Shown in pieces: positions 12,150-28,876 of a stretch of 28,876 nucleotides of DNA. How positions within the stretch are numbered: the first letter of the stretch is position 1; every line of letters starts with the position of its first letter. A model generated the notes under the pieces. That model saw only the letters and a program-made list of their open reading frames with translations, did not search any database and had not been told where the DNA came from. The position numbers and the translations under genes were made by a program. The DNA is from a virus: the IMG/VR virus record IMGVR_UViG_3300037993_001115, positions 1 to 28,876 of that record, one strand, 5' to 3'.

Positions 12150-12311
12150 ATGATTCGGGCAGAATTCAAACAACTTGAAGGCCGGCGGACGGCTCGTTCC
12201 TCCGCGGTCCTGCCCGACCGTCTCCGGCCGGTCGCCGGTCCTTCCTCCATCGGAGCCGCGTCGGAGCTTCACCGCGAAGACGGGGCGTTCCCAAACCAAA
12301 CAAAATTATGA
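12150..12311 (+). CDS. possible small gene before the lipoprotein, 53 aa
   Basis: ATG 12150 opens a 53-codon frame whose TGA overlaps the lipoprotein ATG as ATGA, the junction used throughout this phage. The product starts IRAEFKQLEGRRTARSSAVL and is Arg/Ser/Pro-rich without a recognisable fold, and there is no ribosome-binding site. The coupling favours it, the composition does not. If it is not a gene, 12094-12307 is a leader containing nothing I can name. Confidence 0.3.
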   Translation: MIRAEFKQLEGRRTARSSAVLPDRLRPVAGPSSIGAASELHREDGAFPNQTKL

Positions 12312-12841
12312 AATCAAAAATTCTCGTCTCCATCCTCGCCGCAGCGGCCCTCGTGTTCGCCGGGTGCGGGACACCCAACACCAGCAAGGTGCCGCACGCC
12401 TACCAGGCGGCAGGCAAAGTCATTGCCTTCGGCGTCGTCCAGGACCCGGTCACCGGCCAATACTCGCTCGGCTACCGCTCCGGTTTTCTCGGAGGGTCTG
12501 TCGTCCCGATCTTTGTCGCGACCGCAACGAACGGCGAAATAACCGTCATCATGCCGGACACCGTGATGAGTTACGAAGTCGGCGGCAAAGGCGGCTTCTT
12601 TGGCAGCGCGGCGAGCACCGTAACCTTTGCGACCGGCGCGGGCGCGGTCCAGACGCTGCTCGGCGGAATGCACATCCCAATTAACGCGCCCTACTGGACA
12701 AACTCCGCTGTCGGCATAGCCGTCAATCTCCCGCTGGCCGGCGTGCTCACGCCGACGGTCGGGACCACGATCACCACGACGGGAACGAACGGCACAACCA
12801 CCACCACCGGCACGACCGTGCCGATTGTCATCAAGCCCTGA
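12308..12841 (+). CDS. lipoprotein, 177 aa, first clear gene of the late block
   Basis: A short basic N-region and hydrophobic core end in the lipobox LVFAGCG (Cys at about residue 20), so the protein should be exported by Sec, lipidated and anchored in a membrane. The mature part is Gly/Thr-rich with YSLGYRSGFLGGSVVPIFVA and a Thr-rich tail (TTTGTNGTTTTTGTTVPIV). It is not related to any endolysin or spanin I know, but the place just before a lipase and a holin-like gene suggests a lysis or superinfection-exclusion role. Late genes of Mu-type phages rarely start with such a protein. Confidence 0.8.
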   Translation: MKSKILVSILAAAALVFAGCGTPNTSKVPHAYQAAGKVIAFGVVQDPVTGQYSLGYRSGFLGGSVVPIFVATATNGEITVIMPDTVMSYEVGGKGGFFGSAASTVTFATGAGAVQTLLGGMHIPINAPYWTNSAVGIAVNLPLAGVLTPTVGTTITTTGTNGTTTTTGTTVPIVIKP

Positions 12842-13277: not shown

Positions 13278-14090
13278 ATGCTCCCCCTCGATCCAACGCA
13301 ACCCGGTTTCTCCTGGAGCAACGCCCGCGCCTGCGCGGAGCGCTGTTCGATGGCGTATCACGAGACCGAATCGTCGCTGCGCAACAAAGACATCTCCGGG
13401 AAGATTGTCTGGAATTCGCAGACGGACACGGAGGCGCTCGTCATCAACCACGGGGACTGTATCTGCGTCGCCTTCCGCGGCTCATCGTCGTTGCGCAACT
13501 GGCTGCAGGATTTCAAAGCCCGCTGCGAACATCCGCGCGTCCCGCTCATCGCCTACGACGGCCGGGCCGCCCTGATCCACCAGGGCTTCGAGGAAGACGT
13601 GGACAGCATCACGGTGGATCTCGTGGCACAGGTCTGTGACCTGTGCAAAGACAATACACAGACCAGGAGGTCTGTGCCACTGTTCATCACCGGCCATTCC
13701 AAAGGCGCAGCCGAGGCCATCCTGTTCGCGCTCGAACTGGACCGCCAGCGGTTCCAAATTGCCGGCGTTTACACCTTCGGCCAGCCGCGTGTGGGCAATC
13801 GCGCCTTCGCTAACCTCTACAACGAAACACTCTACGAAGAGACGTTTCGCGTCGTGAACCAGAACGACATTGTCCCGCGCGTGCCGACCGTGCTCATGGG
13901 CTACAAACATTGCGGCCAGGAATTATTTTTGCCCTGTGGCACAGACCTCCGGTCTGTGTTGAACCCTTCACTTTTGTTCAAACTGTTCTCGGATCTCATC
14001 GGCCTTTGGGCGGCCTGGCGCCACGAGACCGACGTGCTCATCGCCGACCATCTCATCGCCGCTTACCAATCTCGAATCCAAATACTATAA
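13278..14090 (+). CDS. class 3 lipase, alpha/beta hydrolase, 270 aa
   Basis: The complete triad is visible: nucleophile S141 in FITGHSKGAA, D197 in NQNDIVPRVP and H258 in VLIADHLIAAY, with the family's oxyanion stretch VAFRGSSS at 64-71 and TFGQPRVGN at 166-174. Lipase_3 enzymes hydrolyse glycerolipid esters. No signal peptide is seen, so a holin or lysis event would be needed for it to reach the envelope from inside. It sits where Mu-type phages keep the endolysin. Two family A insertions (residues 116-134 and 220-227) fall in loops and keep the frame, leaving the motifs intact. Confidence 0.88.
   Translation: MLPLDPTQPGFSWSNARACAERCSMAYHETESSLRNKDISGKIVWNSQTDTEALVINHGDCICVAFRGSSSLRNWLQDFKARCEHPRVPLIAYDGRAALIHQGFEEDVDSITVDLVAQVCDLCKDNTQTRRSVPLFITGHSKGAAEAILFALELDRQRFQIAGVYTFGQPRVGNRAFANLYNETLYEETFRVVNQNDIVPRVPTVLMGYKHCGQELFLPCGTDLRSVLNPSLLFKLFSDLIGLWAAWRHETDVLIADHLIAAYQSRIQIL
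13623..13680. repeat. family A palindromes, inverted pair inside the lipase gene
   Basis: Units 13623-13645 and 13657-13680 around CAAAGACAATA. The pair is read in frame and lies just before the strand leading to the catalytic serine. Confidence 0.85.
13936..13958. repeat. family A palindrome, single unit in the lipase gene
   Basis: GTGG then CACAGACCTCCGGTCTGTG less the shared base; encodes CGTDLRSV between the catalytic Asp and His. Confidence 0.85.
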
Positions 14091-14105: not shown

Positions 14106-14519
14106 ATGCTGCTCGCTGACTCAACGCCCACTGCCAACACCATCTGGATCGCCGTCGTCGCCCTCTCGGGCGTCATGGGCAACTTCGCCCAGCTCGTCAT
14201 CGCCCGCCGCATGGCCGCCCGGCAGCAAGCCGACGTGCGCCTCGTGGCCGACCCGGTGTCGCGCGAGCATTGCGAAGCCATCACCGCGGCCAATGTCACC
14301 CAACTCAAGAATTTTCAGAAACAACTCGACGAATATCGGGAAAGCCGCCGCGTGGACGTGAATGATCTCCACAAAAAAGTCAACACCGCCGCCCAGGACG
14401 TTGCCGCCGTCAAAGCCTCCGTGGACATGCTCTCGAACCGCTTCGACCAGGTGGAAGCCAGCATCAGCAATTTGCCCGACCGCGTCATCGCCACCCTTAA
14501 AAACACCGGAGCCATATGA
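14106..14519 (+). CDS. holin- or spanin-like protein: one membrane helix and coiled coil, 137 aa
   Basis: One N-terminal membrane helix (IWIAVVALSGVMGNFAQLVI, about residues 12-31) precedes a basic RRMAAR stop-transfer and a long coiled coil (NFQKQLDEYRESRRVDVNDL, then KKVNTAAQDVAAVKASVDML). Position between lipase and terminase genes matches lysis proteins of Mu-like phages. The topology fits a phage 'gp24/Rz-like' or small-holin type, not settled from sequence. The stop overlaps the next ATG as ATGA. Confidence 0.65.
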   Translation: MLLADSTPTANTIWIAVVALSGVMGNFAQLVIARRMAARQQADVRLVADPVSREHCEAITAANVTQLKNFQKQLDEYRESRRVDVNDLHKKVNTAAQDVAAVKASVDMLSNRFDQVEASISNLPDRVIATLKNTGAI

Positions 14520-14776
14520 CCGATCTCGAAAAACAAATCCGGCAGTTCATCCTGCGCCTGCTGCTCGCCGCCCGCGACAATCCCATGCCGGACAGCACCG
14601 TGCGCGCGGCCATCGTGGGCGCGTTCCCGCATGTCGCCTTCAGCGGCGGCGACCTGGGCAACTTCATCAAGGACGCCGAGGACTTCAATTTCATTGCCGG
14701 GACCAACGACGACGTGTTCGGCCTCATGTGGGCGCTCACGCCCAAAGGCAAAATCCGCGCCCAACAACTCCGTTGA
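14516..14776 (+). CDS. small phage protein, 86 aa
   Basis: Starts DLEKQIRQFILRLLLAARD and continues with VAFSGGDLGNFIKDAEDFNF, ending in GLMWALTPKGKIRAQQLR. The two-helix plus winged-helix-like hairpin resembles a small DNA-binding or dimer domain. I recall similar proteins before the small-terminase gene of Mu-like phages but cannot name the family. ATGA at the start, and a gap of three bases to the small-terminase ATG. Confidence 0.7.
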   Translation: MTDLEKQIRQFILRLLLAARDNPMPDSTVRAAIVGAFPHVAFSGGDLGNFIKDAEDFNFIAGTNDDVFGLMWALTPKGKIRAQQLR

Positions 14777-14779
14777 TGA

Positions 14780-15367
14780 ATGAGCAAACAAAAAAATTCC
14801 AAGCTCGATCCCTTCGCCGAACGATTGGACCAATGGTTCACGCCCAAAGCCAAGGGCGGCGACGGTTTTACTTTGGCGCAGGCGCAGGAGCAGTTGCGTT
14901 TGGATGGCTGCTCGGTATCCACCTCGCGTTTGGGGGACTGGTGGGAACAGCGCCAATCGCAGAAAGCCCAGGCCGCGATCCTGTCGGACATCGCCACGGC
15001 GGGCCGCATGAACAAGGAACTGGACAAAGCCTTCGCCAAAAATCCCGCGCCGGAAATCGAGCGGCTCATCCAGGTCACCAAGACGCTCATCCTCAGTCTG
15101 CAAATCCAGGGCCGGGCCGATCCCAGGCTGCTCTCGCTGGCGACCGTCATGCAACAGACCGTGCTCAACTATTTGAGCGGCGTCACCAAAGCCAAGCTGG
15201 AGGACCGCAAACTCGGCCTCCAGGAGCGCCGGGTGAAATTGTTGGAACAGAAGGCGGCGGCCTACGACCGCGCCCAGGAAATATTGAACCAGGCCAAATC
15301 GTCCAAGGGCGGCATCACTCCCGAAACCTGGAAGAAGGTCGAGGACGAACTGCATTTGATGCCGTGA
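14780..15367 (+). CDS. Mu gp27-like small terminase (DUF3486-type), 195 aa
   Basis: Order and architecture match the Mu gp27 family. An N-terminal helix-turn-helix-like part contains GFTLAQAQEQLRLDGCSVST and SRLGDWW. A long central helical oligomerisation part follows, with a C-terminal coil (KAKLEDRKLGLQERRVKLLE). Small terminases bind phage DNA and start packaging together with the large subunit. The last codons overlap the terminase start as GTGA. Family call by pattern; DNA recognition is inferred. Confidence 0.8.
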   Translation: MSKQKNSKLDPFAERLDQWFTPKAKGGDGFTLAQAQEQLRLDGCSVSTSRLGDWWEQRQSQKAQAAILSDIATAGRMNKELDKAFAKNPAPEIERLIQVTKTLILSLQIQGRADPRLLSLATVMQQTVLNYLSGVTKAKLEDRKLGLQERRVKLLEQKAAAYDRAQEILNQAKSSKGGITPETWKKVEDELHLMP

Positions 15368-16695
15368 AAAAAGCCGACGCCTATTTTCTGCCCTATCAGG
15401 CCGATTGGATTAACGACCAGTCGCGGCTCAAGATTTGCGAGAAAGGCCGCCAGATCGGCCTCTCCTACGCCGACTCCTACGATTCCGTAAAAAAAGCCGC
15501 GCTCAGAAATGGCCGCGATGTCTGGGTCATGTCCCGCGACGAAGTGCAGGCCAAGCAATACATCCTTTACTGCAAACGCTGGGCCACCGCCCTTAAATAC
15601 GTCATCGCGGATTTCGGCGAACAACTTTTCACCGACAGCGGCGGCAAGGCCGTCAAAATTCAGGTGCTCACCTTTGCCTCGGGTGCCAGCATTTACGCGC
15701 TCTCCTCCAACCCGGACGCCATCGTCGGCAAAACCGGCCACGTCAAACTGGACGAATACGCCATCCAAAAACTGCAGCGCGACCTATATGCTTACGCGAA
15801 GCAGGTCACGCAATGGGGCGGCACACTCTCCATCATCTCCACCCATCGCGGCATCGCCACCCAGTTCAACCAGTTCATCGTTGACATCAAGGAACACGGC
15901 AATCCGATGGGCTGGTCACTGCACACCATCCCGATCCAGCGCGCCGTTGCGGACGGCATCGTCGAGAAAATAAATGCCGCCACCGGCGGCACTGAGACCC
16001 GTGAAGAATGGCTGGCGCGGATGCGCCGCGAGTGCGTTGATGAGGAACAATGGCTCCAGGAATATTGCTGCATTCCCGCCGACGAATCCACGGCCTTCAT
16101 CTCCTATGAGATGATCACCGCCTGCGAGGACGACTCCGCGCCGAAAAATATCGAGTATCTTTTGAATTGCGCCAACCCGCTTTACATCGGCTTCGATGTC
16201 GCCCGCACCACGCACCTCAGCGTCATTGATGTCGAGGAAAAAGTCGGCGACGTTTTTTGGGAGCGCCTCCGGCTCGAACTCCGCGGCAAAACTTTCGCCG
16301 AGCAGGAATTCCATCTCGACAACCTCATGAAACTCCCCGCCGTCCGCCGGGTGTGCATTGACTCCACCGGTTTGGGGATGCAGCTCGCCGAGCGGGCCGT
16401 CGCCAAATACGGTTATCGCGCCGAGGCGGTCCGCTTCAGCGGCACGGTCAAGGAAGACCTCGCCTTCCCCCTCCGCTCCGCCCACGAAGACCGCACCCTG
16501 CGTTACGCAAAATCCGACGCGCTGCGCGCCGACCTGCGCGGCATAAAAAAAGAAACCACCACATCCGGCAACATCCGTTTCGTCGGCGAAGCCGCGGACA
16601 GCCACTGCGACCGTTTTTGGGCCAAGGCCCTCGCCATTCACGCCGGCAAAACTTCCGGACTTTGGGGCGGCGGAAGGGGGGCAATCTTAATTTGA
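15364..16695 (+). CDS. phage terminase large subunit, Mu gp28-like, 443 aa
   Basis: The packaging motor: an ATPase and an RNase H-like nuclease. The ATPase has a P-loop variant KGRQIGLS (residues 27-34) and Walker B VKLDEYA (D130/E131). The nuclease acidic residues are D278 (YIGFDVARTT), D333 (VCIDSTGLG) and D416 (HCDRFWA). I start at GTG 15364, overlapping the small-terminase stop as GTGA. The frame is open far upstream to 14362, but that part overlaps two better genes. The protein is shorter than Mu gp28 (about 550 aa), but all motifs are present. Confidence 0.92.
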   Translation: MKKADAYFLPYQADWINDQSRLKICEKGRQIGLSYADSYDSVKKAALRNGRDVWVMSRDEVQAKQYILYCKRWATALKYVIADFGEQLFTDSGGKAVKIQVLTFASGASIYALSSNPDAIVGKTGHVKLDEYAIQKLQRDLYAYAKQVTQWGGTLSIISTHRGIATQFNQFIVDIKEHGNPMGWSLHTIPIQRAVADGIVEKINAATGGTETREEWLARMRRECVDEEQWLQEYCCIPADESTAFISYEMITACEDDSAPKNIEYLLNCANPLYIGFDVARTTHLSVIDVEEKVGDVFWERLRLELRGKTFAEQEFHLDNLMKLPAVRRVCIDSTGLGMQLAERAVAKYGYRAEAVRFSGTVKEDLAFPLRSAHEDRTLRYAKSDALRADLRGIKKETTTSGNIRFVGEAADSHCDRFWAKALAIHAGKTSGLWGGGRGAILI

Positions 16696-19329: not shown

Positions 19330-19610
19330 TTCGTCATTCGTCATTCGTCATTCGTCATTCCGGCTCGCTGGCCGCCGTCCGCCGCGAGCTGGTCAAGGCC
19401 CGCCTGGCGGACACCGTGGCCGTCTCGATGAGCCTCAGGAATTTCTGGCGGCCGCTGGTCCTCTGGCGCGCCGTCAAATTTATTTTCCGCAACCAGCGCC
19501 GGCAGAAGATCCTCGCGCGCCTCGCGCGCGCCCGCATGGGATTCCGCTGGCGCGATTCGCGTCCGCTCAAACTCCAACGCCAGCTCGGCCTTAAACCAAA
19601 AATATCATGA
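19326..19610 (+). CDS. small very basic protein with repeat-derived N-terminus, 94 aa
   Basis: Residues 2-12 (IRHSSFVIRHS) are encoded by three tandem copies of a TCATTCG unit, a widespread dispersed repeat, so the native gene probably started at SLAAVRRELVKARLADTVAV. The body is Arg/Ala/Leu-rich and helical (VKFIFRNQRRQKILARLARA). Two ATGA overlaps. A helical nucleic-acid- or scaffold-binding protein is possible. Unrecognised. Confidence 0.62.
   Translation: MIRHSSFVIRHSGSLAAVRRELVKARLADTVAVSMSLRNFWRPLVLWRAVKFIFRNQRRQKILARLARARMGFRWRDSRPLKLQRQLGLKPKIS
19329..19360. repeat. TTCGTCA tandem (family G) at a gene start
   Basis: Four ATTCGTC-type units back to back (7-base period). A longer relative is at 27236-27297. 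Confidence 0.75.
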
Positions 19611-20287
19611 ACCCCATCCGCCGCACCATCCATCCCGTCGTCCGCATCGTGGACGAAAAAAATTACATCGCCGAGTTCACCGCCAGCGACGAGACCATTG
19701 ACCTCACCAACGAGGTCATCCGCTCCGCCGGCTGGCGCTTCAACCTGGCCAAAAAGAATTTCCCGTTCGTCAACTCGCACGACTACGAGGACATCCGCAA
19801 CGTGCTCGGCCAGGTCATTGATTTTGGCGTCGTCGCCGGCAAGCTCATGAACACCGTCAAATATGCCTTCGCGGAAAATCCGCTCGCCGAGTTTTGCTGG
19901 AAGATGACCGTCGGGAATTTCCTGCCCGCCGTCAGCGTCGGCTGCATCCCGCTCGTGGCCGCCACCCGCTGGGATTCCAACTCGAAACTTTACGACGCGC
20001 AGCGCGCCGATCTGAAACTCGCGCGCGACGTGATGCCCAATATCATCTACATTGAGCAGGAACAAATCGAACTTTCCGCTTGTGTCATCGGCGCCAACCC
20101 CAACGCCGTGGCCAAAGCCTACAAGGCCGGCGCCATCACCGATGCCGACCTTGAATTACTTTCCACCGAGACTGCCAGACGCCAAATCGCCGACTCGACC
20201 GATGGTCCCGCTGCCGTCGAGAAGGCCCGCCAGCGGGTGCGCACGGCAACTCTGATGGAGTTCAAAACCAAAATCAAAAAACTGTAA
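19607..20287 (+). CDS. HK97-type prohead protease, 226 aa
   Basis: The N-terminal beta domain has the catalytic pair expected of the Caudovirales U35/HK97 family: H58 in FVNSHDYED and S157 in QIELSACVIGANPNAVA. The GANPNA after the Ser is a signature. It would cut scaffold and N-terminal parts of the capsid protein in the prohead. It begins with an ATGA overlap and is followed four bases later by the capsid gene. The C-terminal helix is probably its own scaffold-like tail. Confidence 0.9.
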   Translation: MNPIRRTIHPVVRIVDEKNYIAEFTASDETIDLTNEVIRSAGWRFNLAKKNFPFVNSHDYEDIRNVLGQVIDFGVVAGKLMNTVKYAFAENPLAEFCWKMTVGNFLPAVSVGCIPLVAATRWDSNSKLYDAQRADLKLARDVMPNIIYIEQEQIELSACVIGANPNAVAKAYKAGAITDADLELLSTETARRQIADSTDGPAAVEKARQRVRTATLMEFKTKIKKL

Positions 20288-20291
20288 CCGT

Positions 20292-21809
20292 ATGCACAAA
20301 CACAAATATCTGAAACTGTTCGCGCTGCCGGCTCTCGCGCTGGCCGCGCTCCCCGTTCTATTGTTCATCGTCGCCTTCACCTTCATCATGCTGGCCCCGT
20401 CAGGCGTGGCACAGACCTCCGGTCTGTGTTCGATGGCCATCACACCCCTCGTCATCCCCAAGGGCAAGGCGCTGACGGACGAGGAATTCCAGGCCACGCT
20501 CTTCGGCGGCGTCAACTCGCTCATCGAGGAGCAGGGCACCTTCAAGTCCGCTCAGCAAAAAATCCTCGATGACCTCGGCCGGTCCGACAAGGAAGTAAAA
20601 GCCGCGCTGGAGGAATTGACCAAAATAAAAAACACCACGAACACCACGTTTGAGGATATGATGAATCGCTTGGAGAAAGTCCAACGCCAGTTGATGCTGA
20701 ACACCCGCTCCAGCTTCCGCTCGCCCGTTGAGCGCGCCTTGAGCAATGAAGAACTCCGGTTCAACCTCAACGCAATGGCGCGTTGTGTGCTCGCGGCCAA
20801 ATTCAAGGACGCACCCACGCCCGACCCGGCCTTCGTCAAAGCGGTCGAGGAGATGAACGTCAAGGCGAAGATCCTCACCGGCGTTGACGCCGGTCTCGGC
20901 CAGGCCACCGTGCCCACGGATACCTTCAACGAGATTTATGATCTCCTGTTGGAGTATGGCGATTACGCCACGCTCGGCGTTGGACGCGTTGGCGCCCGCA
21001 CGAACGTCCTTCCCATCGCCACCAGCCGGCCGCAGTTCTACTGGATCGGCTCGCAATCCACCTTGGCCGAATCCACGGCCATCACCGCCGGCGCCTTCGG
21101 CGGCAGCCAGGTGCTCAACATCATCAATACCTGCGCCGTGCTCATGTATATCGCGCGCGAACTGCTCGCGGACTCCACCGTGGACCTCGCGCCCTGGGTC
21201 CTCCATCAAATGATCGAGTCCGCCAATTGGGGTCTCGACACCGCCGCGTTCATCGGCACCGGCGCCCAGGACACCACCAACGCCGGCTACATCGGCATCT
21301 TCAACGCCGCGCTCGCGAACACGAACCTCGCGCTCGTCGCCGGCGCCGGCCGCGTCACCACCGCCCAGCTCAAGCTCGACGACTTCGTCAACACGCAGCT
21401 CACCGTCTCGCCCGAGGTATTGAACCGCAAACCCAAATGGTGGGCGCATTCCTTCAACATCGCCCGCGCCGCGCTCATTCGCGACAACAACGGCCGGCCA
21501 ATATTCCAGACCTGGCAGGAAGTGCCCAATCCCGGCGCCATCGGCAGCATCCTCGGCTGCCCCGTCCATCCCACCGCCATCGCTCCCAGCACGGATGGCC
21601 CGAGCACCACGCCCTTTGTGTTCGGCGATCCGCAAGGCATGAGCGTCCTGATCCGGGCCGACCTCGAACTGGCCACCAGCGACGACATCGGCTTCCCGCA
21701 AAACCTGCGTGCCTTCCGCGCGCTGGTCCGCGCCGGCGCGAAAATGAAAACCGTTGCCGCGAGCACCACGCTCAAACCGTTCGCCGTCCTCACCACGGCG
21801 GCGCAGTAA
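20292..21809 (+). CDS. major capsid protein, HK97 fold, with unusual hydrophobic N-terminus, 505 aa
   Basis: From residue 48 it has the typical delta-like domain with a coiled coil (FKSAQQKILDDLGRSDKEVK), then a likely cleavage stretch (RSSFRSPVERALSNEEL), and the HK97 core (TVPTDTFNEIYDLLLEYGDY ... QTWQEVPNPGAIGSILGCPV ... FVFGDPQGMSVLIRADLEL). Residues 1-38 are a strongly hydrophobic segment like a signal peptide or membrane anchor, and 39-47 come from a family A palindrome. The alternative start is ATG 20433, directly after the palindrome, but no ribosome-binding site is there. Any leader would be removed with the delta domain by the protease. Confidence 0.88.
   Translation: MHKHKYLKLFALPALALAALPVLLFIVAFTFIMLAPSGVAQTSGLCSMAITPLVIPKGKALTDEEFQATLFGGVNSLIEEQGTFKSAQQKILDDLGRSDKEVKAALEELTKIKNTTNTTFEDMMNRLEKVQRQLMLNTRSSFRSPVERALSNEELRFNLNAMARCVLAAKFKDAPTPDPAFVKAVEEMNVKAKILTGVDAGLGQATVPTDTFNEIYDLLLEYGDYATLGVGRVGARTNVLPIATSRPQFYWIGSQSTLAESTAITAGAFGGSQVLNIINTCAVLMYIARELLADSTVDLAPWVLHQMIESANWGLDTAAFIGTGAQDTTNAGYIGIFNAALANTNLALVAGAGRVTTAQLKLDDFVNTQLTVSPEVLNRKPKWWAHSFNIARAALIRDNNGRPIFQTWQEVPNPGAIGSILGCPVHPTAIAPSTDGPSTTPFVFGDPQGMSVLIRADLELATSDDIGFPQNLRAFRALVRAGAKMKTVAASTTLKPFAVLTTAAQ
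20406..20428. repeat. family A palindrome, single unit at the capsid start
   Basis: Encodes VAQTSGLC. The conventional capsid start ATG 20433 follows four bases later. Confidence 0.88.
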
Positions 21810-21820
21810 TAACCATTCAA

Positions 21821-21850
21821 GGTAGGGCGCGCAGTCCCCTGCGCGCCGCG
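21821..21850. repeat. dispersed palindrome family C, after the capsid gene
   Basis: GGTAGGGCGCGCAGTCCC then CTGCGCGCCGCG: arms GGCGCGCAG/CTGCGCGCC. Starts 12 bases after the capsid stop. The context ATTCAAGGTAGGGCGCGCA is shared with the copy at 26460. Confidence 0.8.
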
Positions 21851-21883
21851 CCTTAAACCAAAAACATTCAACGAATATAAAAA

Positions 21884-22738
21884 ATGAAAACTGAACACGA
21901 AATCAAAGCCCTCCCCCTGGAGGAAAGACAAAAGCTCGCCATCGAGCTGCGCGCCGTCAAAACCGGCGACAAACTTTACGCCAATGCGAAAGCCCTCCTC
22001 GAACTCATCACCTACTCGCAAGGCTGGAAAGAGCCGGCCCTGATCGAAGTGAAAAATGTATCCGGACATGTGGTCACCGTGGACGACTCGGCCATTGCGC
22101 CCGACGCCACCAGCAAGGTGTTCCCCTGGCAGTTCGCCGCCCTGGCGCGCTTCCTCGAACCCGTCACCAAGGCCGCCGCGCTCCTGCTGCTGTTGCTCGG
22201 CCTGAATGTTTACGCGACCACCACCGACCTCATCGGCTCGGCCGGCGATTATCACGTCATGGCTGTCGCCGGCCTTAACGGCGGCACCAACGCCATCGGC
22301 CCCGCCGGCGTGACGAACTACTTCTATCCGACGATCACGACCAACCAGACGGCCTACCCCACGTGGACCGTCTCGAACGGCGTGTCTTCGGTGGTTTTCA
22401 ACACGAACAACACCTACGTCACCAACGTGCCGGGATTGTTCAGCATCGTGAACTTTGAGGACTTCACCCTCACGTTTGCCTGCGCGTCGCAGGTCAGTTC
22501 CAACCTGACCGAATATGCGTTCGTTGATTATTCATCCGACGGCAGCAACTGGCAGACGAATAAATGGGTCCTGCCGCTGCTGCCCATTGGCACCGGCCAG
22601 ACCACTACCAACCTCGATGTAACCGGATGTTCCGGCGGCTACGGCCGCCTCAATTGCATATCCAACAATTCGGTTTTTTATGCGTTGACCAACATCTATT
22701 TCGAGGTCACCACCAAGACCCGCACCCGCGGCCCGTAA
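21884..22738 (+). CDS. head-tail joining-type protein fused to exported beta-rich domain, 284 aa
   Basis: Residues 1-95 look like a phage head-region protein (VKNVSGHVVTVDDSAIAPDA then KVFPWQFAALARFLEPV), a pattern I associate with small proteins downstream of phage capsids. Residues 96-111 are a hydrophobic segment ending LNVYA/TTTD, exactly like a signal-peptide cleavage site. The remaining 170 residues are Asn/Thr-rich with NTNNTYVTNV and FVDYSSDGSNWQTNKW. It may be two genes joined in frame or a membrane-anchored virion protein. No ribosome-binding site precedes the ATG. Confidence 0.72.
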   Translation: MKTEHEIKALPLEERQKLAIELRAVKTGDKLYANAKALLELITYSQGWKEPALIEVKNVSGHVVTVDDSAIAPDATSKVFPWQFAALARFLEPVTKAAALLLLLLGLNVYATTTDLIGSAGDYHVMAVAGLNGGTNAIGPAGVTNYFYPTITTNQTAYPTWTVSNGVSSVVFNTNNTYVTNVPGLFSIVNFEDFTLTFACASQVSSNLTEYAFVDYSSDGSNWQTNKWVLPLLPIGTGQTTTNLDVTGCSGGYGRLNCISNNSVFYALTNIYFEVTTKTRTRGP

Positions 22739-22815
22739 CGCCGGATTAATTCATGCTCACTCAACCGCCAAAGGACCGGATGCTCAAGTCGCGCGAAGTT
22801 ATGACTCGCGCCCCC

Positions 22816-22838
22816 GTGGCACAGACCTCCGGTCTGTG
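22816..22838. repeat. family A palindrome, single unit, intergenic
   Basis: Located in the 158-base gap 22739-22896, 58 bases before the start of a signal-peptide gene. In frame with the gene downstream (encodes VAQTSGLC upstream of its ATG). Confidence 0.85.
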
Positions 22839-22896
22839 TCCCCCGCCTCCGGCTCCTTTGGCGGCTTCCACCAAACCCATTCGTCCCCTTCGACCT

Positions 22897-23424
22897 ATGA
22901 AAAAACTATTTCTGCTCTCTGCTCTCTGCTCTCTGCTTGCGCCCATCGCCTTTGCCGTCCCCGGCGACGCCCCGTCCCTCAACCTGTATCCCGCCACTCC
23001 TTATCTCGGCGACGATATTTACAGCGTTCACACCAATCTTTTTAGCGCCACCAACGATGTCTCCGCCCGCTTCGCCATCGGCGCCATCGGCTGGCCCGAG
23101 CTGGTCGCCGCCAAGGCCATTGTGCAGCCGGCCAGCGCCACACTCACCAACATCGACGCTTCACTGCTCAACCTCACCAATAACATCACCACCTCAAGCA
23201 ATGCCGCCGTCATCGCCGCCGCCGCCCGTGCCACCGCCAGCGTCAATGCCCTCGCCACCAATGGCGCACTATCGGCCCCAACCATTGTCGGTTATTTCAT
23301 CATCGCCGCCACCAACGCCGGCCCGAATCTCGGCACCAACCGCGTTGACACAAACAATGCCGCCTGGTGCACCGTGTCCAACTCCGCCAACGGCGATGTT
23401 TATAAATTAAAACTTTACAGATGA
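22897..23424 (+). CDS. exported protein with Sec signal peptide among head genes, 175 aa
   Basis: Starts KKLFLLSALCSLLAPIAFAV, a canonical signal peptide with cleavage expected after AFA. The mature part is Ala/Asn/Thr-rich with ATLTNIDASLLNLTNNITTS and a helical AAVIAAAARATASVNALAT, ending in a beta segment AAWCTVSNSANGDVYKLKLY. It looks like a tail-fibre or attachment accessory. The ATG at 22897 is chosen because the signal peptide begins there; the frame is open upstream through the palindrome. The stop overlaps the next ATG as ATGA. Confidence 0.75.
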   Translation: MKKLFLLSALCSLLAPIAFAVPGDAPSLNLYPATPYLGDDIYSVHTNLFSATNDVSARFAIGAIGWPELVAAKAIVQPASATLTNIDASLLNLTNNITTSSNAAVIAAAARATASVNALATNGALSAPTIVGYFIIAATNAGPNLGTNRVDTNNAAWCTVSNSANGDVYKLKLYR

Positions 23425-24092
23425 ACGCCGGCTTTTCCAACCTGACCACGCTCAAAGCCGCGCTGCTCGCGCCCGCCCTGCGCGCCGCCATAGATTTCGA
23501 CGCGCAGATCGCCGTCATCGGCCAGGGCATCGCCGGCCTGTTCAGCACTTATTGCAATCGCGATTTCGGTTACGTTGCCGGCGCGCAGGAGGTTGCCTCC
23601 GGCAACCGCGAATTCTGGTTCGTCCGCCGCTCGCCCGTTTCGGTTTTCTCCAACGTCGAACTCCGGTATTTCCGCGCCGACAACTGGACCAGCATCGCCA
23701 ACCAGCCGCTGGCCGCCGATGAATCCAAGGGCCTCATCCATTTCGGCTACACCCTCGGCCGCGCGCCCATCCAGGTGCGCATCACCTACAACGGCGGCTA
23801 CTTTTGGGAACAGCTTGAGCCGAACGATCCGGCTTATCCCACCGCCGTCCCCGCCGACATCACCAATAACGCCGCCGGCCTTCCACCCGCGTCGTTCAAT
23901 CTGCCGCCCGACCTTTTGAGCGCCTGGCTGCTCCAATGCGAAATCACCTGGAAGATGCGCGACAAACTCGGCGCCGGCATCACCCAGGGCGAAGCCAAAG
24001 GCCGCGGCCCGCTTTACGAGATCAACGACCTCGACCTCGCGCCCATCGTCCAAAAAATGTTGCAGCCCTACAAACGCTATCAATTGACATGA
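23421..24092 (+). CDS. head-tail connector-like protein, 223 aa
   Basis: The N-terminal helices (LTTLKAALLAPALRAAIDFD) and the start of a beta region (IAGLFSTYCNRDFGY) match the layout of gp6/DUF3199-like connector proteins, where a helical core is followed by beta strands (VELRYFRADNWTSI). The C-terminal half ends in helices. It lies between capsid-region genes and gpG-like protein, where connectors are normally encoded. Family not certain. ATGA overlaps at both ends. Confidence 0.6.
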   Translation: MNAGFSNLTTLKAALLAPALRAAIDFDAQIAVIGQGIAGLFSTYCNRDFGYVAGAQEVASGNREFWFVRRSPVSVFSNVELRYFRADNWTSIANQPLAADESKGLIHFGYTLGRAPIQVRITYNGGYFWEQLEPNDPAYPTAVPADITNNAAGLPPASFNLPPDLLSAWLLQCEITWKMRDKLGAGITQGEAKGRGPLYEINDLDLAPIVQKMLQPYKRYQLT

Positions 24093-24154
24093 ATAATCAA
24101 CTTCACTTTTCAATTGCCTCGCCGAAGCCGGGCGAAGGCGGGCAGCTCACATGA
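24089..24154 (+). CDS. tiny open frame, 21 codons, in an ATGA chain
   Basis: ATGA links it to both neighbours. Product begins NNQLHFSIASPKPGEGGQLT. Too short to judge as a protein; it may simply keep ribosomes moving from the connector gene to gpG-like gene. Confidence 0.3.
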   Translation: MNNQLHFSIASPKPGEGGQLT

Positions 24155-24219
24155 AACCAGCCACTACATCGCGCGTTCGGTGTCCACGCTTTAGCGTGTT
24201 CGGCGCTGCCTTCCCATGA
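24151..24219 (+). CDS. tiny open frame, 22 codons, in an ATGA chain
   Basis: Starts in the ATGA of the previous frame and ends in the ATGA of the gpG-like gene. Half of it is the family D palindrome (24172-24204), so its protein content is probably unimportant. Confidence 0.3.
   Translation: MKPATTSRVRCPRFSVFGAAFP
24172..24204. repeat. dispersed palindrome, family D copy 3
   Basis: GTTCGGTGTCCACGCTTTAG then CGTGTTCGG; stem ACGCT/AGCGT where copy 1 has CCGGCT/AGCCGG, with the same GTTCGGTGTCC lead and CTTTAG centre. Confidence 0.8.
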
Positions 24220-24758
24220 GCCAGCCATACGACATCGAGATTTCCGGCGACGCGTTGAAGTGCATCCCGCGCCTCAAGGACGACGCCGGGCTGGGCCGCG
24301 CCATCGCCCGTGAAATGGAATTTCAGAACGACCAGGTCATCAAACAAATCCGCACCGCGCATCTGGCCGGGCCAACCACCGATTCCTCGTTGAGTCCGCG
24401 CACTTATCGGCTGATGACTTCCGTCCGCAAATCCCCCGCCATCATCACCGCCAACCGTGTCGAATCCTCCATCGGCTCCAATGTCAGTTATGCCCTGATT
24501 CACGAACTCGGTTACGACGGTCCCGAGGAGGTCGCCGCCCACGTCCGCCGCCGTTTCACGTCCGGCAAATTTCTGATCGGCGGCAAAACGCGGCACTTGG
24601 AGCACGTCCACACCGGCGATATCAACGTCCGCGCCTACACCCGCCAGATGCACATGCCCGCCCGAGCACCCTTCGCCCACGGCCTCGCCGACCGCGCGCC
24701 GGAATATGGCGAAGGCGTCAGCGGCGCCATCATCAACTATTGGGAGGGCAGGAACTGA
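24216..24758 (+). CDS. Mu gpG-like virion morphogenesis protein, 180 aa
   Basis: Resembles the phage gpG/HK97 gp10 tail-completion family. An N-terminal helical part reads IAREMEFQNDQVIKQIRTAH. A middle conserved block SNVSYALIHELGYDG is the usual 'YA.iHe.G' motif, followed by the C-terminal MPARAPFAHGLADRAPEYGE, which matches the expected 'PAR.P..ga' ending. These proteins are tail-completion or connector components. The start is set by ATGA at 24216. Family call is from the motifs. Confidence 0.82.
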   Translation: MSQPYDIEISGDALKCIPRLKDDAGLGRAIAREMEFQNDQVIKQIRTAHLAGPTTDSSLSPRTYRLMTSVRKSPAIITANRVESSIGSNVSYALIHELGYDGPEEVAAHVRRRFTSGKFLIGGKTRHLEHVHTGDINVRAYTRQMHMPARAPFAHGLADRAPEYGEGVSGAIINYWEGRN

Positions 24759-25465
24759 TGAGCGACACCAAGTTCATCCGCCGCTTCCAGGACCACACGC
24801 TCGCTAAACTGTTGAGCGAGCCGTTGCTCAACGCTGTCTCCATCGCCTCCATGCGCAACCAGGTCCTGCTCAAACCCGAGCAGCGCGCCGTCCCGCACCT
24901 GGCCGGCCGCAACGGCAAAGTCGGCGCCGGCATCCTCATCAACCTGCCCCTCGCCGATCCGACCGACGCCGACGTGCCGGGCGCCCAAATGAGCATCAAA
25001 CTGCCCATTGACATTCTCGTCGCCGATGACATCAGCCTGGTCCTATCCAACGGCGCGCAGATCACCGCCGAGGAGATTGTCGTCATCGTTTGGCTGCTCC
25101 TTAATCAATTCTTAAACCAGTCTTTAGGCAGCGGTAATTGGTTCGTCGTCGGGTTCGATCCCATCGAAGACCGCAAGGGAGCTTACGGCTACCGGCTGGT
25201 CCTCGAAGTCCGCTTCGCCGCCGACCAGCCGGACAAAGTGTCCGCGCCCACGGCCGTCATCGCCGCCGGCCACGCCACCCTCTCCTGCATTACGCCCGGC
25301 GCGGCGATCTACTATACCCTCGACGGCTCTTTCCCCGGTCCCGGAAATTCCGCCGCACACCTTTACACCGCGCCGGTCGCCGTCTCGACCGGACAAGAAC
25401 TGCTCGCTGCAGCTTACCTGGCTAACTACATCGGCAGCGACGTCTGGCAAACCCTGGTCCCATGA
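24758..25465 (+). CDS. phage tail-terminator-like protein with chitobiase-type C-terminal domain, 235 aa
   Basis: GGGAGGGCAGGA precedes the ATG, which overlaps the gpG-like stop as TGATG. Residues 1-155 look like a structural phage protein of unknown family in the terminator position (SNGAQITAEEIVVIVWLLLN, NWFVVGFDPIEDRKG). Residues about 165-235 match the CHB_HEX_C (chitobiase C-terminal, Fn3-like) pattern: ATLSCITPGAAIYYTLDGS, then LYTAPVAVSTGQELLAAAYL. That domain occurs in sugar-binding and secreted proteins and could be virion decoration contacting carbohydrate. Confidence 0.7.
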   Translation: MSDTKFIRRFQDHTLAKLLSEPLLNAVSIASMRNQVLLKPEQRAVPHLAGRNGKVGAGILINLPLADPTDADVPGAQMSIKLPIDILVADDISLVLSNGAQITAEEIVVIVWLLLNQFLNQSLGSGNWFVVGFDPIEDRKGAYGYRLVLEVRFAADQPDKVSAPTAVIAAGHATLSCITPGAAIYYTLDGSFPGPGNSAAHLYTAPVAVSTGQELLAAAYLANYIGSDVWQTLVP

Positions 25466-25466
25466 C

Positions 25467-25496
25467 CCTCAACTCTCAACACTCAACACTCAACCA
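25467..25496. repeat. CTCAACA simple repeat (family H)
   Basis: Several CTCAAC-type units in the gap after the tail-terminator-like gene. Related units occur at 6835-6865 and 27017-27040, both next to an ATG. Confidence 0.6.
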
Positions 25497-25499
25497 TCA

Positions 25500-26450
25500 A
25501 TGAACTCATCCAACATCATAATCGGTCCCGGCTACCTCAGCCGCAACGGCGCCAATTACCGTTTCAACGAAGGCGGCCTCAAAGTAAAATTCATGCGCAA
25601 ATGGCGCGAAGTCTCCGCCGAGGAATTCGGCCGCTTCGACTCCACGCAAACGGACCGCTCCGTCGAAATCACCGGCAAGCTCTGGAGCGGCTACGAAAAC
25701 CTTGGCGAACTTTTCCCCGCCACCATGCTCACGCCCGTCATCGGCTCAACCCTGTTTGGCATCGCCGACAAACTGGCCACGATCAACGGCCAGGACGGCT
25801 CGCGCCTGCTCGTCGCGCGCACCATGTTCACCGAGTTCACCAACCTCGACTTGAGCGTCGAGAAGGAACTCTGGTCCGCCGATATCAAACTAATCGGCCT
25901 GCTCGCCTCCGGTTCCACGCCCACCGACGCCCCCAATGCCGCCACCGGCGCGCCCTACTTTGTTGAGTCGGAAGGCAACGCTTATGCGCCGCCGGCGTTC
26001 AACAAATCCGCGTTCCGGGCGCCCATCATCACCGCCGCCTGGGGCACGCGCCCCGGCTTCACCAGTTTCGTCCCGCGCAAGGGCGTTGCTCTCGCCGGCA
26101 AATACGCCCTCGACCCGGAACCGTGTTACGTGAACGGCTACGGCACGCTGGATATGATCGTGGACGGCTTTGAAGGCGAGGCCAAGATGACGCCCATCGG
26201 GCCGACGCTCGCCCAGATCCTCGCCAATTGCGGCATGGGCGGCGCGCTCGGCGCCCTCCAAAGCACCGCCAACACCGACAATCTGGTGCTCACCGCCTCC
26301 GGCCTGGCCATCACATTGTTCGCGGCGTTCCTGGGCGACCATGACGCCGTCGCCTGGGCGCGGAAAAATAATCGCATCGGCGACTGGACCTGGCGCAGCA
26401 CCGTGCCCTTTGCCGCCGGCCTGCCCACCGCCCGCGCCGCCATCGCATAA
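25500..26450 (+). CDS. putative major tail tube protein, 316 aa
   Basis: A soluble, beta-rich protein: NSSNIIIGPGYLSRNGANYR, then VEITGKLWSGYENLGELFPA, and a C-terminal part ending NRIGDWTWRSTVPFAAGLP. By place (directly after terminator-like gene) and by size it fits a tail tube subunit, and the NIIIGPGxLxRNG N-terminus looks like tail-tube beta-sandwich openings. No exact family recognised; a baseplate or other tail protein is possible. Intergenic palindrome follows its stop. Confidence 0.6.
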   Translation: MNSSNIIIGPGYLSRNGANYRFNEGGLKVKFMRKWREVSAEEFGRFDSTQTDRSVEITGKLWSGYENLGELFPATMLTPVIGSTLFGIADKLATINGQDGSRLLVARTMFTEFTNLDLSVEKELWSADIKLIGLLASGSTPTDAPNAATGAPYFVESEGNAYAPPAFNKSAFRAPIITAAWGTRPGFTSFVPRKGVALAGKYALDPEPCYVNGYGTLDMIVDGFEGEAKMTPIGPTLAQILANCGMGGALGALQSTANTDNLVLTASGLAITLFAAFLGDHDAVAWARKNNRIGDWTWRSTVPFAAGLPTARAAIA

Positions 26451-26459
26451 ACAATTCAA

Positions 26460-26486
26460 GGTAGGGCGCGCACTCCGTGCGCGCCG
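26460..26486. repeat. dispersed palindrome family C, after the tube gene
   Basis: GGTAGGGCGCGCACTCCG then TGCGCGCCG: arms GGCGCGCA/TGCGCGCC. It starts 10 bases after the stop and shares its flank with the copy after the capsid gene. Confidence 0.82.
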
Positions 26487-26525
26487 CTTCCCCAAAAACA
26501 CAACCATCAACAAGCAAAAATAAAC

Positions 26526-26978
26526 ATGAAAACAAAAACAAAACATCTGGCCGCGCTGATCCTGACTGTGGCCTGTGGACTCTGGACTCTGGACTGTCAC
26601 GCCCAAACCTTCGGCGGCGGCATCACCGTCACCGGCAACACCAACGGCCTCATGCAAAGTGTTCCCGGCACGGTGGTCACCAACACCGCCTATCTCAACA
26701 TCCCGGCCAAAACCCTGCTGCTCTCGCAGATCACGTCCACCAACGAAACCGCCATCGGCTACTACGGTTTTCAAATCCCCGCTAATTATCCTCTCATGCC
26801 GGGAACAACCAACGTCTATGTCGTCGCCTCGTTCACCAATTCGTTCGCGCTGCCCGGCGGCACCAACAACGGCACTCTGACGACCAACTTCGCCGGCATT
26901 TACAACCTGCCCATCCCGCTCGTCACCGTCATGGGCCTCAGCATCGGCGCGAACACCAATGTCGCCTACGTGCCGTAA
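26526..26978 (+). CDS. exported Asn/Thr-rich protein, 150 aa
   Basis: A signal peptide (KTKTKHLAALILTVACGLWT, then LDCHA, cleavage expected after CHA) precedes 120 residues of beta-rich Asn/Thr/Gly sequence (ITVTGNTNGLMQSVPGTVVT; FTNSFALPGGTNNGTLTT). Such proteins resemble secreted adhesins or fibre sub-domains, but none is recognised. It is similar in style to the 175-aa and tailspike genes. A non-conventional tail gene; the context is structural. Confidence 0.7.
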   Translation: MKTKTKHLAALILTVACGLWTLDCHAQTFGGGITVTGNTNGLMQSVPGTVVTNTAYLNIPAKTLLLSQITSTNETAIGYYGFQIPANYPLMPGTTNVYVVASFTNSFALPGGTNNGTLTTNFAGIYNLPIPLVTVMGLSIGANTNVAYVP

Positions 26979-27028
26979 TCAAAAAACATTGAATCGTGGA
27001 CACCGAACAAAGCAACCAACACTCAACT

Positions 27029-27238
27029 ATGAACACTCAACCAATCCTCACCCTGGAGAACCTCAAGGCCGACATCGCCGCCATCGAGGCCATCATCAAA
27101 CGTTACGAGCCGGCCCTGGCCCAGGGCACGCATCTGGTGACCGGCACCGGCGCGCTCCGCACCGCCATCCGCTGTCTCAAGGACCACGTCCAGGCTTTGG
27201 CCGCGGCACCGGCGAAACCGGCGGAAGTGCCGAAGTGA
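27029..27238 (+). CDS. small helical protein, 69 aa
   Basis: Helical: LENLKADIAAIEAIIKRYEP, then TGALRTAIRCLKDHVQALAA and a Pro/Ala tail. ATG 27029 lies inside a CTCAAC-type repeat; an in-frame GTG at 26996 is possible. The position after tube and fibre genes would suit a small tail assembly chaperone, but there is no direct evidence. Confidence 0.55.
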   Translation: MNTQPILTLENLKADIAAIEAIIKRYEPALAQGTHLVTGTGALRTAIRCLKDHVQALAAAPAKPAEVPK

Positions 27239-27297
27239 TTTCGGATTTCGGATTTCGGAATTCATTCGGATTTCGGCATTCGTCATTCGTCATTCGC
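27236..27297. repeat. GGATTTC/TCATTCG simple repeat (family G)
   Basis: Short tandem repeats GATTTCG..., GGAATTC... and TCATTCG between 27236 and 27297, ending two bases before the next ATG. I recall this run as a common dispersed repeat of the same host group. Confidence 0.7.
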
Positions 27298-27299
27298 CA

Positions 27300-27734
27300 A
27301 TGGACGTTCTCGCCTACAACGCCGCCGTCAGCGGCCAGCAGCCGCTGGCCCTCGGGGCCATCGCTCAACAAATATGGGTGAACGGCTTCAAGTTCGGCGA
27401 GGACCGGCAGGTCCAGGTCTTCACGCCCTTTCGCGGGGCCGTGCCGATTCTGTTTGACCGCTTGACGCGCACGGAAAGTTTTCACCTCGCCGCCGGCCGC
27501 TCCTTTGGGACGGCGGCGACGGCGCTGGATCAGGCATTGGATTTCATCCGCACCCACGTCGCCGCGGTGCCCGTCCTCGCCAACCTCGTCTTCAGCTCCC
27601 CCAACAAGAAAATCTACCTCCTGAACTGCGGCATCCCGCGCGTCGAGCTGCTGGAAAAGCGCGGCGCGCTCCTGATTTTTTCCTACACCATCACCGGCGG
27701 CACCTTCAGCGCCGCCCCACCCCAGAACTTATGA
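27300..27734 (+). CDS. tail-region protein, 144 aa
   Basis: Soluble alpha/beta protein: QQPLALGAIAQQIWVNGFKF, then an F-rich strand block (VFTPFRGAVPILFDRL), a helix ATALDQALDFIRTHVAAV, and a C-terminal hydrophobic strand (GALLIFSYTITGG). No family recognised. Located directly before the tailspike gene, with an ATGA overlap (27731), it may be a baseplate or spike-adaptor component. Its start follows a dispersed repeat. Confidence 0.65.
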   Translation: MDVLAYNAAVSGQQPLALGAIAQQIWVNGFKFGEDRQVQVFTPFRGAVPILFDRLTRTESFHLAAGRSFGTAATALDQALDFIRTHVAAVPVLANLVFSSPNKKIYLLNCGIPRVELLEKRGALLIFSYTITGGTFSAAPPQNL

Positions 27735-28876
27735 AAAAACTCCTTTTAATTTTTAGTTTCAGCTTTCTGATCGCTGCTTTTGGAACGCCGGTTATGTTCC
27801 CGGTCCGCTCCTTTTTCGGCGGCGGCCAATACCTCCAGACCATCACCGTCACCGCCGTAAACACGAGCCTGACCGACTACACCAACCTTTACGCCGGCCA
27901 GACAATTTCGTTCGTGCCGTCCGGCGGGACCAATCCCATCATCCAACTCCAGCCGAACGACTACGTGCTCACCCTGCCCGAACTCTCGTTGTCCTACCAA
28001 TTTTCCCTGCCGGCCACCAACGCGGTGGTGAACGTGCTCACCCTCATCACCAATGGCCTGTTGTCTTATTACCCGGCGAATCTTTACACCAACTACCCGA
28101 CGTTTGCCGAAGGCGATCTCCGCTGGGACCCGCTCGGCGCCGGTAGCAGCGCCCCCAACACCAACGCGTTGTCCGCGGCCGATGCGGCGCGCCTGGCTAA
28201 CGCCCTAACCAACCTCAACGGCCTCGGTCCCGGCACCAATTCATACGTCTGGCCGAATGCGTCCCATTCGGCCTATGCGTCCCAAGCCACCAATGCTGCC
28301 ACCGCCACCACCGCAACCACGGCGACGAATCTTGTCAATTTCCCATTCAATAAAACTTTGTGGGTTGACCCCGTGAATGGCAGCGATGTGACCGGCCAGC
28401 GCGGCAACGCCGCCAAACCGTTTCAATCCATCGGCTGGTGGCAATCCTTTACCGACGATTCTGACACACCCTTTGCGTATTATCCGACCGGCGCTTTGTC
28501 GGCGGCTGTTGGCGGTGATTTAATCCGTGTTGCTCCCGGCACGAACTGGATCGTCGCCGTCCAACTCTGGCGGGCAGGCCGAACCCACAACGGAGTTTCG
28601 TTGATTGGTGAGGGTGAAGGTGTGACGTTTCTGGTAGAGACAAATTGCCACGACGGAACTGTGCCGATTCAAGTCGTGACGCTTGGCCCGCTCATCCAAC
28701 CCGGTAACAATTCTCTCGTCGGCGGGTTCACTTACATCTCGGCGGACGGTGGCGGCTCCCTTGGGCCGGATGGCTACGGAATCAACGGGTTTGGCTATGT
28801 GACTTACGCGGCCATTTACCCCGGCTTCACCAATGCAACCATGTTCAACATCAGCGGCACGGCGCACAATATAGCC
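27731..28876 (+). CDS. tailspike-like protein with signal peptide and beta-helix, cut at window end
   Basis: An open frame of 382 codons with no stop. Residues 1-18 (KKLLLIFSFSFLIAAFG) are a signal peptide. An Asn/Thr-rich region follows, with a repetitive linker near 175-200 (ATNAATATTATTATN). From about residue 209 the sequence LWVDPVNGSDVTGQRGN with AKPFQSI and GGDLIRVAPGTN is the opening of a right-handed beta-helix as in pectate lyases and phage tailspikes. Typical function: binding and cleaving a host polysaccharide. The signal peptide is unusual for a virion protein. Confidence 0.75.
   Translation, partial: MKKLLLIFSFSFLIAAFGTPVMFPVRSFFGGGQYLQTITVTAVNTSLTDYTNLYAGQTISFVPSGGTNPIIQLQPNDYVLTLPELSLSYQFSLPATNAVVNVLTLITNGLLSYYPANLYTNYPTFAEGDLRWDPLGAGSSAPNTNALSAADAARLANALTNLNGLGPGTNSYVWPNASHSAYASQATNAATATTATTATNLVNFPFNKTLWVDPVNGSDVTGQRGNAAKPFQSIGWWQSFTDDSDTPFAYYPTGALSAAVGGDLIRVAPGTNWIVAVQLWRAGRTHNGVSLIGEGEGVTFLVETNCHDGTVPIQVVTLGPLIQPGNNSLVGGFTYISADGGGSLGPDGYGINGFGYVTYAAIYPGFTNATMFNISGTAHNIA

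Follow-up and report, generated by a model that had tools for sequence, protein, structure and literature searches.

The stretch of DNA analysed here (the window) is the IMG/VR virus record IMGVR_UViG_3300037993_001115, a linear fragment of 28,876 nucleotides (28.9 kb) from a Mu-like transposable siphophage of Verrucomicrobiota. Signal-peptide-like segments recur on its virion-region genes: those for the major capsid protein (MCP), the adjoining 284-aa protein (g284), a 175-aa protein, a 150-aa protein and a spike or fibre protein (Table 1). The minus strand encodes a MuA-type transposase (3729-5699; phrog_310 transposase, E=2e-10), a MuB-type ATPase (2537-3667; phrog_296 DNA transposition protein, E=6.6e-22) and a Gam-like protein (PF07352, E=4e-5, below the curated cut-off). 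The late genes lie on the plus strand and encode a lipoprotein, a class-3 lipase, a DUF2730 releasin-like protein, terminase, a fused portal/MuF protein, protease, an HK97-type capsid protein, adaptor, neck, tube and fibre. The late order is Mu-like, namely terminase, portal/MuF, protease, MCP, the gene at the gp35/gp39 position, adaptor, neck, tube and tape measure, the last being known from relatives only and not from the window; gene order in the window agrees with that of the Mu-like siphophage JBD30.

Relatives of the capsid protein were found in metagenomic virus contigs and in Verrucomicrobiota genomes, comprising two subdivision 3 metagenome-assembled genomes (MAGs), one Verrucomicrobiia MAG and Luteolibacter marinus, while tblastn with the window MCP gave no match among sequenced phage records. 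A capsid of this family was found in 7 of the 384 genomes sampled from the class. In MAG G003 the late side of the phage is adjoined by apparent host genes, so that the phage is a prophage at least there; the last phage gene of this prophage also carries a signal. Related loci are referred to below by L numbers and genomes by G numbers.

Table 1. Signal-bearing genes of the window and associated features.
Feature	Position	Strand	Description
Lipoprotein	12308..12841	+	MKSKILVSILAAAALVFAGC, VFAGC lipobox; start of the late block
Prohead protease	19607..20287	+	Weak matches to phrog_617/4523/3244; conserved in >20 related loci
HK97-fold MCP	20292..21809	+	Leader, coiled-coil delta-like region (~aa 60-200) and Phage_capsid domain (aa 203-490)
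MCP leader, aa 1-56	20292..20459	+	Basic n-region MHKHKYLK, ~26 hydrophobic residues, then CSMAITPLVIP
Palindrome in MCP leader	20405..20428	+	In-frame insertion reading VAQTSGLC; absent from relatives' leaders
g284 (284-aa protein)	21884-22738	+	Adjoins the capsid gene
g284 N-terminal domain, aa 1-95	21884..22168	+	Cytosolic type; position of JBD30 decoration protein gp39 / Mu gp35
g284 internal signal peptide, aa 96-111	22169..22216	+	Ends LNVYA; EPVTKAAALLLLLLGLNVYA then TTTD
g284 beta-sandwich domain, aa 112-284	22217..22735	+	Exported-type; stand-alone with N-terminal signal peptide in L045
Small ORF remnant	22753..22896	+	Conserved open reading frame (ORF) of ~52 aa (MLxQPPKDRM...), disrupted by palindrome at 22815-22838
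175-aa protein	22897..23424	+	ATG at 22897; classical signal peptide MKKLFLLSALCSLLAPIAFA then VPG
150-aa protein	26526..26978	+	N-terminal signal ..GLWTLDCHA then QTFGGG
Spike/fibre	27731..28876	+	Open at the window end; MKKLLLIFSFSFLIAAFG then TPV (..LIAAFG then TPVMF)

An earlier note, made from the letters of the window alone, had listed hydrophobic segments on the capsid leader, the 284-aa protein (internal), the 175-aa and 150-aa proteins and the tailspike, together with AFA, CHA and VYA cleavage sites and a lipoprotein at the start of the late block. Every one of these segments is present in the sequence, the three sites were found where it had placed them, and the VFAGC lipobox of the gene at 12308 bears out the lipoprotein. 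Signals were scored with a home-made rule-based score, each protein being compared with 200 shuffles of itself; Sec and signal peptidase I criteria were a basic n-region, an h-region and small residues at -3/-1, and by this rule all of them are found in g284, the spike, the 150-aa protein and the 175-aa protein. The score was reached by 0/200 shuffles of the 284-aa protein, 5/200 of the 223-aa ORF that holds the 175-aa gene, and 8/200 of the spike. Thus, of the proteins named by the note, the 284-aa segment lies far beyond chance and the 175-aa and spike segments moderately so, but those of the 150-aa protein and the MCP leader are weak in the window alone. The case as a whole therefore rests on the relatives, which show the observation to be family-wide.

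Among the core virion controls, none of the 101 homologues of terminase, portal, protease, adaptor, neck and tube passed the strict cut. None of ~46 structural proteins of Mu and JBD30 scored, spanins alone being flagged. Passes among homologues of the gene at 24740 (2 of 11) and of the lipase (1 of 13) indicate that the score gives some false positives for internal segments.

The gene for g284 has a homologue 3' of the capsid gene in all closer relatives. These homologues share one layout, with an N-terminal region of ~95-150 aa followed by a basic residue, a hydrophobic core, an AxA-type site and a beta domain, and despite overall identities of 28-55% position -1 remains A and position +1 mostly Q. 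The strict cut was passed by 15 of 20 (window included); of those that failed, L019, L029, L014 and L030 have the segment by eye, and L038 ends at the contig end. All comparable relatives with sequence extending as far as the g284 signal show an h-region with an AxA-type site, and the pattern also occurs in the distant G337 homologue L082 and in L041. In L045 the beta domain is a separate protein behind a textbook N-terminal signal (MKKLLLSAFCAFSAVIPAYS then QLYD), and the distant relatives L022 and L080 encode the N-domain alone. From these separate forms it follows that the internal segment of g284 corresponds to a real signal peptide and that the window gene is a fusion. AlphaFold models g284 as two folded domains with a low-confidence stretch between them at the signal, the second domain bearing a weak likeness to CBM6/CBM4 and C1q-like jelly rolls. 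Membership in a known family was rejected for g284, no Pfam or PHROG family being matched, and a comparison with PDB sequences gave no significant match.

Q at +1 was seen in 16 of 103 rough, noisy signal-peptide calls from the host contigs of the Verrucomicrobiota MAGs G001 and G003, where, within that noise, it is among the commonest +1 residues. The Q-rule, by which most signal peptidase I substrates have Q at +1, has been stated as Bacteroidetes-specific (PMC5837995).

The protein encoded just before the tape measure was covered in 12 relatives. Its N-terminus is signal-like in all of these but L040, where the signal-like segment is internal. The window spike consists of the signal, an ~85-aa attachment domain conserved among pre-tape-measure proteins and a variable region; this domain is common to eight such proteins, including that of the window, and starts directly after the predicted cut. 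Pairwise comparison of the spikes gave 15 pairs at E<1e-3 within the first 150 residues and 0 in the remainder. A conserved domain of ~85 aa with a variable remainder matches the usual layout of tail fibres, in which a putative attachment domain is followed by a variable tip. In L019, L021 and L023 the spike has an extra hydrophobic segment before the signal, with the mature start unchanged. Searches of the spikes against Pfam and PHROG gave nothing useful beyond Melibiase_C and a beta-helix match, the latter in L022. The spike of the L020 prophage (L020:17883-20303) carries the Melibiase_C domain (PF17801, E=2.9e-06) behind a signal peptide.

For the 150-aa protein, a homologue of the domain in L023 lies behind an internal signal peptide, after a different N-terminal region. 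The 175-aa gene is an insertion that separates the small ORF from the adaptor gene; it lies within a 223-aa ORF (from 22753), and the 5' part of this longer ORF corresponds to a small ORF of its own that relatives conserve.

The earlier note had raised the possibility that fibre parts derive from captured genes for secreted proteins of the host. Stand-alone and fused forms (L045 against g284; the window 150-aa protein against L023) and N/T-rich domains like those of host secreted proteins speak for such capture. That the signals are functionless relics of captured modules is nevertheless highly improbable, because ~20 divergent phages retain the signal pattern while its letters change.

The same genes could instead encode exported proteins that are not virion parts, such as secreted decoys, adhesins or glycan-degrading release helpers from infected or lysogenic cells. 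Classical signal peptides would suit this role, as would the carbohydrate-type folds (the CBM6/CBM4-like jelly roll, Melibiase_C in L020 and the beta-helix in L022), but the genes hold fixed positions, after the MCP and before the tape measure, in relatives with a covered late block, and eight spikes combine a conserved attachment-like domain with a variable distal part, as tail fibres do. We regard a purely secreted role as unlikely, though by no means far-fetched. Exported adhesins or decoys made by the lysogen were among the meanings offered by the earlier note; of these, export itself is made plausible by the conserved signal-peptidase-type sites at mature-domain starts, but lysogen-specific expression is unsupported, because the genes sit within the late virion block at fixed positions.

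The MCP has a clear Phage_capsid domain (PF05065, E=1.3e-24, 87.5 bits against a cut-off of 24.2; also phrog_10), and its leader is of transmembrane (TM) length and located at the distal end of the N-terminal coiled coil. AlphaFold gives the leader as one helix, aa 5-34, which alone was used from a model with a mean predicted local distance difference test score (pLDDT) of 53 over the MCP. Across relatives, the leaders have a hydrophobic stretch of ~26-30 residues, usually with A or G at a plausible -1, and share no cleavage motif. They fall into class A (window, L009/23, L010/25, L012/26, L013/27, L014 and L019), class B (L020, L035, L038 and L040) and other sequences (L041, L044, L022, L058 and L059). 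On a tree of the capsid core, neither class B (p-AU, approximately unbiased test, 0.001) nor class A (p-AU 0.022) is one clade, and the presence or absence of a leader needs several changes. The distribution of leaders does not follow the capsid-core tree, and the leader has therefore been exchanged or lost as a module. The ratio of nonsynonymous to synonymous substitution rates (Ka/Ks) is 0.34-1.08 in the leader, mostly below 0.7, and 0.15-0.27 in the MCP body. Among 7 phages, the leader h-region has undergone at least 57 amino-acid changes and contains no charged residue (P ~1e-3, a rough estimate).

One alternative is that the MCP is made from an internal start, with the leader as a minor or untranslated upstream reading frame. 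An ATG does lie near the leader/core boundary in the window, L023, L026 and L014, and leaderless relatives begin at the homologous point. L019 and L027, however, have no in-frame ATG, GTG or TTG at this boundary, so that the leader is translated with the MCP there and its bypass via an alternative start at the boundary is impossible; moreover, no Shine-Dalgarno-like sequence is evident at the boundary by eye, and the leader is under protein-level constraint. We consider an internal start improbable. The leader was also rejected as a separate upstream gene, leader sequences being found on MCPs only and never alone in the loci searched. Leaderless capsid proteins and unrelated proteins of 217/225 aa have a common N-terminal motif like MKxILLIADAAxG (L021:15490-16140, L023:15595-16269, L039:9959, L028:5177), which looks like N-terminal pieces exchanged between genes.

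The hydrophobic segments might alternatively be structural elements unrelated to Sec, the MCP leader serving as a scaffold tip inside the prohead and those of spikes and decoration proteins as anchors or membrane-active peptides. The MCP leader exceeds the length of a normal signal h-region, occupies the site at which the delta domain projects into the prohead and has no single conserved cleavage motif, all of which would suit a scaffold. This explanation fits poorly with the g284 and spike segments, which keep small residues at -3/-1 with the mature domain beginning exactly there, and with the textbook N-terminal signal of the stand-alone L045 form; for the set as a whole it seems to us quite unlikely.

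The signals are present and conserved in pattern, stand directly before mature domains and are absent from core virion proteins, and the leaders have been swapped between capsid lineages. Because the sites are pattern-conserved and mark the starts of mature domains, Sec export with cutting by signal peptidase I is the simplest reading. We think it on balance probable that these are real Sec signals used late in infection, with appendages exported through the signal peptidase I route and, separately, a capsid leader acting as a membrane tether. From sequence we infer export, cleavage, tethering, removal by the protease and a location of these proteins in the virion. Under this proposal, g284, the 150-aa and 175-aa proteins and the spike would have their beta-rich domains exported to the periplasm and cut directly before the mature domain, there to be incorporated into particles when the cell lyses, or to act on glycans of the envelope. 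Through its internal signal, the single g284 gene would yield, like a small polyprotein, a membrane-bound cytosolic N-domain and an exported ectodomain; host signal peptidase would make the cut, and the N-domain would stay on the cytosolic face of the membrane.

The MCP leader exceeds a normal signal h-region in length, and a tether is the reading preferred for it. As an exchangeable TM-length helix at the far end of the delta-like region, it may hold capsid subunits at the inner membrane during prohead assembly, after which the candidate prohead protease would remove it together with the delta-like region. Assembly at a membrane, which the earlier note had listed as a possible meaning for the whole series, is thereby retained as the best reading for the capsid leader, in view of its length and its place at the distal coiled-coil end, as a proposal. 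A bolder extension appears doubtful: heads would be built while tethered to the inner membrane, host signal peptidase would split the g284 mini-polyprotein into an anchor on the capsid side and an ectodomain in the periplasm, and spikes would be exported ahead of assembly, the particles reaching completion outside the cytosol when the cell lyses.

Several points weigh against export coupled to particle assembly. Tailed phages are known to assemble in the cytoplasm, and no route is known by which periplasmic parts could join a virion. The presence of these proteins in the virion is deduced from gene position. Position is likewise the one point on which the g284 N-domain agrees with JBD30 gp39 and Mu gp35; neither sequence nor profile comparison detected homology to these decoration proteins, hhalign giving a probability of 0.1 for both. 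Within the window alone, the signal score was reached by 19/200 shuffles of the 150-aa protein and 20/200 of the MCP leader. Finally, about half of the related capsids have no leader, and tethering is therefore not essential.

Parallels exist in other systems. T4 heads begin to assemble at the inner membrane, on its cytoplasmic side, and the prohead protease removes an N-terminal piece of the capsid protein, as proposed here for the leader tether; the attachment in T4, however, is made by the portal together with a membrane chaperone rather than through a hydrophobic capsid-protein leader. The flavivirus capsid-prM polyprotein has a cytosolic capsid-side domain, an internal signal, a signal-peptidase cut and an exported domain. 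Its likeness to g284 is an analogy of layout only, the proteins and hosts being unrelated. JBD30 (Casadabanvirus) and phage Mu share the succession of protease, MCP, gp39 (at the g284 position), small ORF, adaptor, stopper, tube and tape measure, and gp39 is a minor capsid protein, a trimeric decoration protein (PMC11445458). In contrast to the window phage, JBD30 has structural proteins without signal-like segments, a gp39 of 113 aa with neither signal nor ectodomain, and no spike gene before the tape measure.

The literature searched yielded a single precedent for phage capsid proteins with predicted signal peptides: Porphyromonas gingivalis phages of the proposed family Nixviridae (PMC10367356). 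The earlier note's statement that ordinary tailed-phage virion proteins are cytoplasmic thus holds as a rule, but not without a predicted exception. In those phages signal peptides are predicted on the major capsid proteins, the authors suggest their cleavage by the prohead protease, as in our proposal, and further phage proteins have signal peptides obeying the Q-rule of the host (PMC10367356). Those phages differ in infecting Bacteroidota and inserting at a tRNA-proline gene, and the text consulted describes neither an analysis across the family nor a head-surface gene with an internal signal nor any exchange of leaders (PMC10367356). As far as our searches reached, three observations are new: such capsid-protein signals being conserved and swapped within a whole phage family, an internal signal in the putative head-surface gene g284 with stand-alone and fused forms, and the spike attachment domain directly behind a signal. 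Conserved export signals and a swappable capsid leader hint at particle parts made at or outside the cell membrane. Set against the textbook view that tailed phages assemble wholly in the cytoplasm, this family lets the use of host export in particle building be tested directly. Other phages can be searched for virion genes in which an internal AxA site precedes a domain that occurs elsewhere as a separate protein with its own signal peptide.

At the start of the late block, the lipoprotein is assigned to the lysis-module type and adjoins the class-3 lipase and DUF2730 releasin-like genes. The lipase gene (13278-14090; PF01764, E=1.6e-29) has homologues 5' of terminase in 12 relatives, and no muralytic endolysin was recognised within the window. 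An IS1595-type transposase gene (PF12762; 10075-10941, minus strand) lies between the early and late phage blocks. In the terminase ORF, the first ~340 residues (14362-15378) are Arg/Pro-rich and resemble an out-of-frame extension, the terminase match beginning near residue 340. The gene at 24740-25465, in the tail completion position, encodes a C-terminal Fn3_assoc/CHB_HEX domain (25280-25465) of a carbohydrate-enzyme-associated type.

A 24-bp palindrome, CGTGGCACAGACCTCCGGTCTGTG, and a variant of it occur in about ten copies (7062, 7560, 8488, 8522, 12071, 13622, 13656, 13935, 18299, 20405 and 22815). The exact core was not found in any other fetched locus; in the window, the palindrome lies in frame within the lipase, portal and MCP leader genes.

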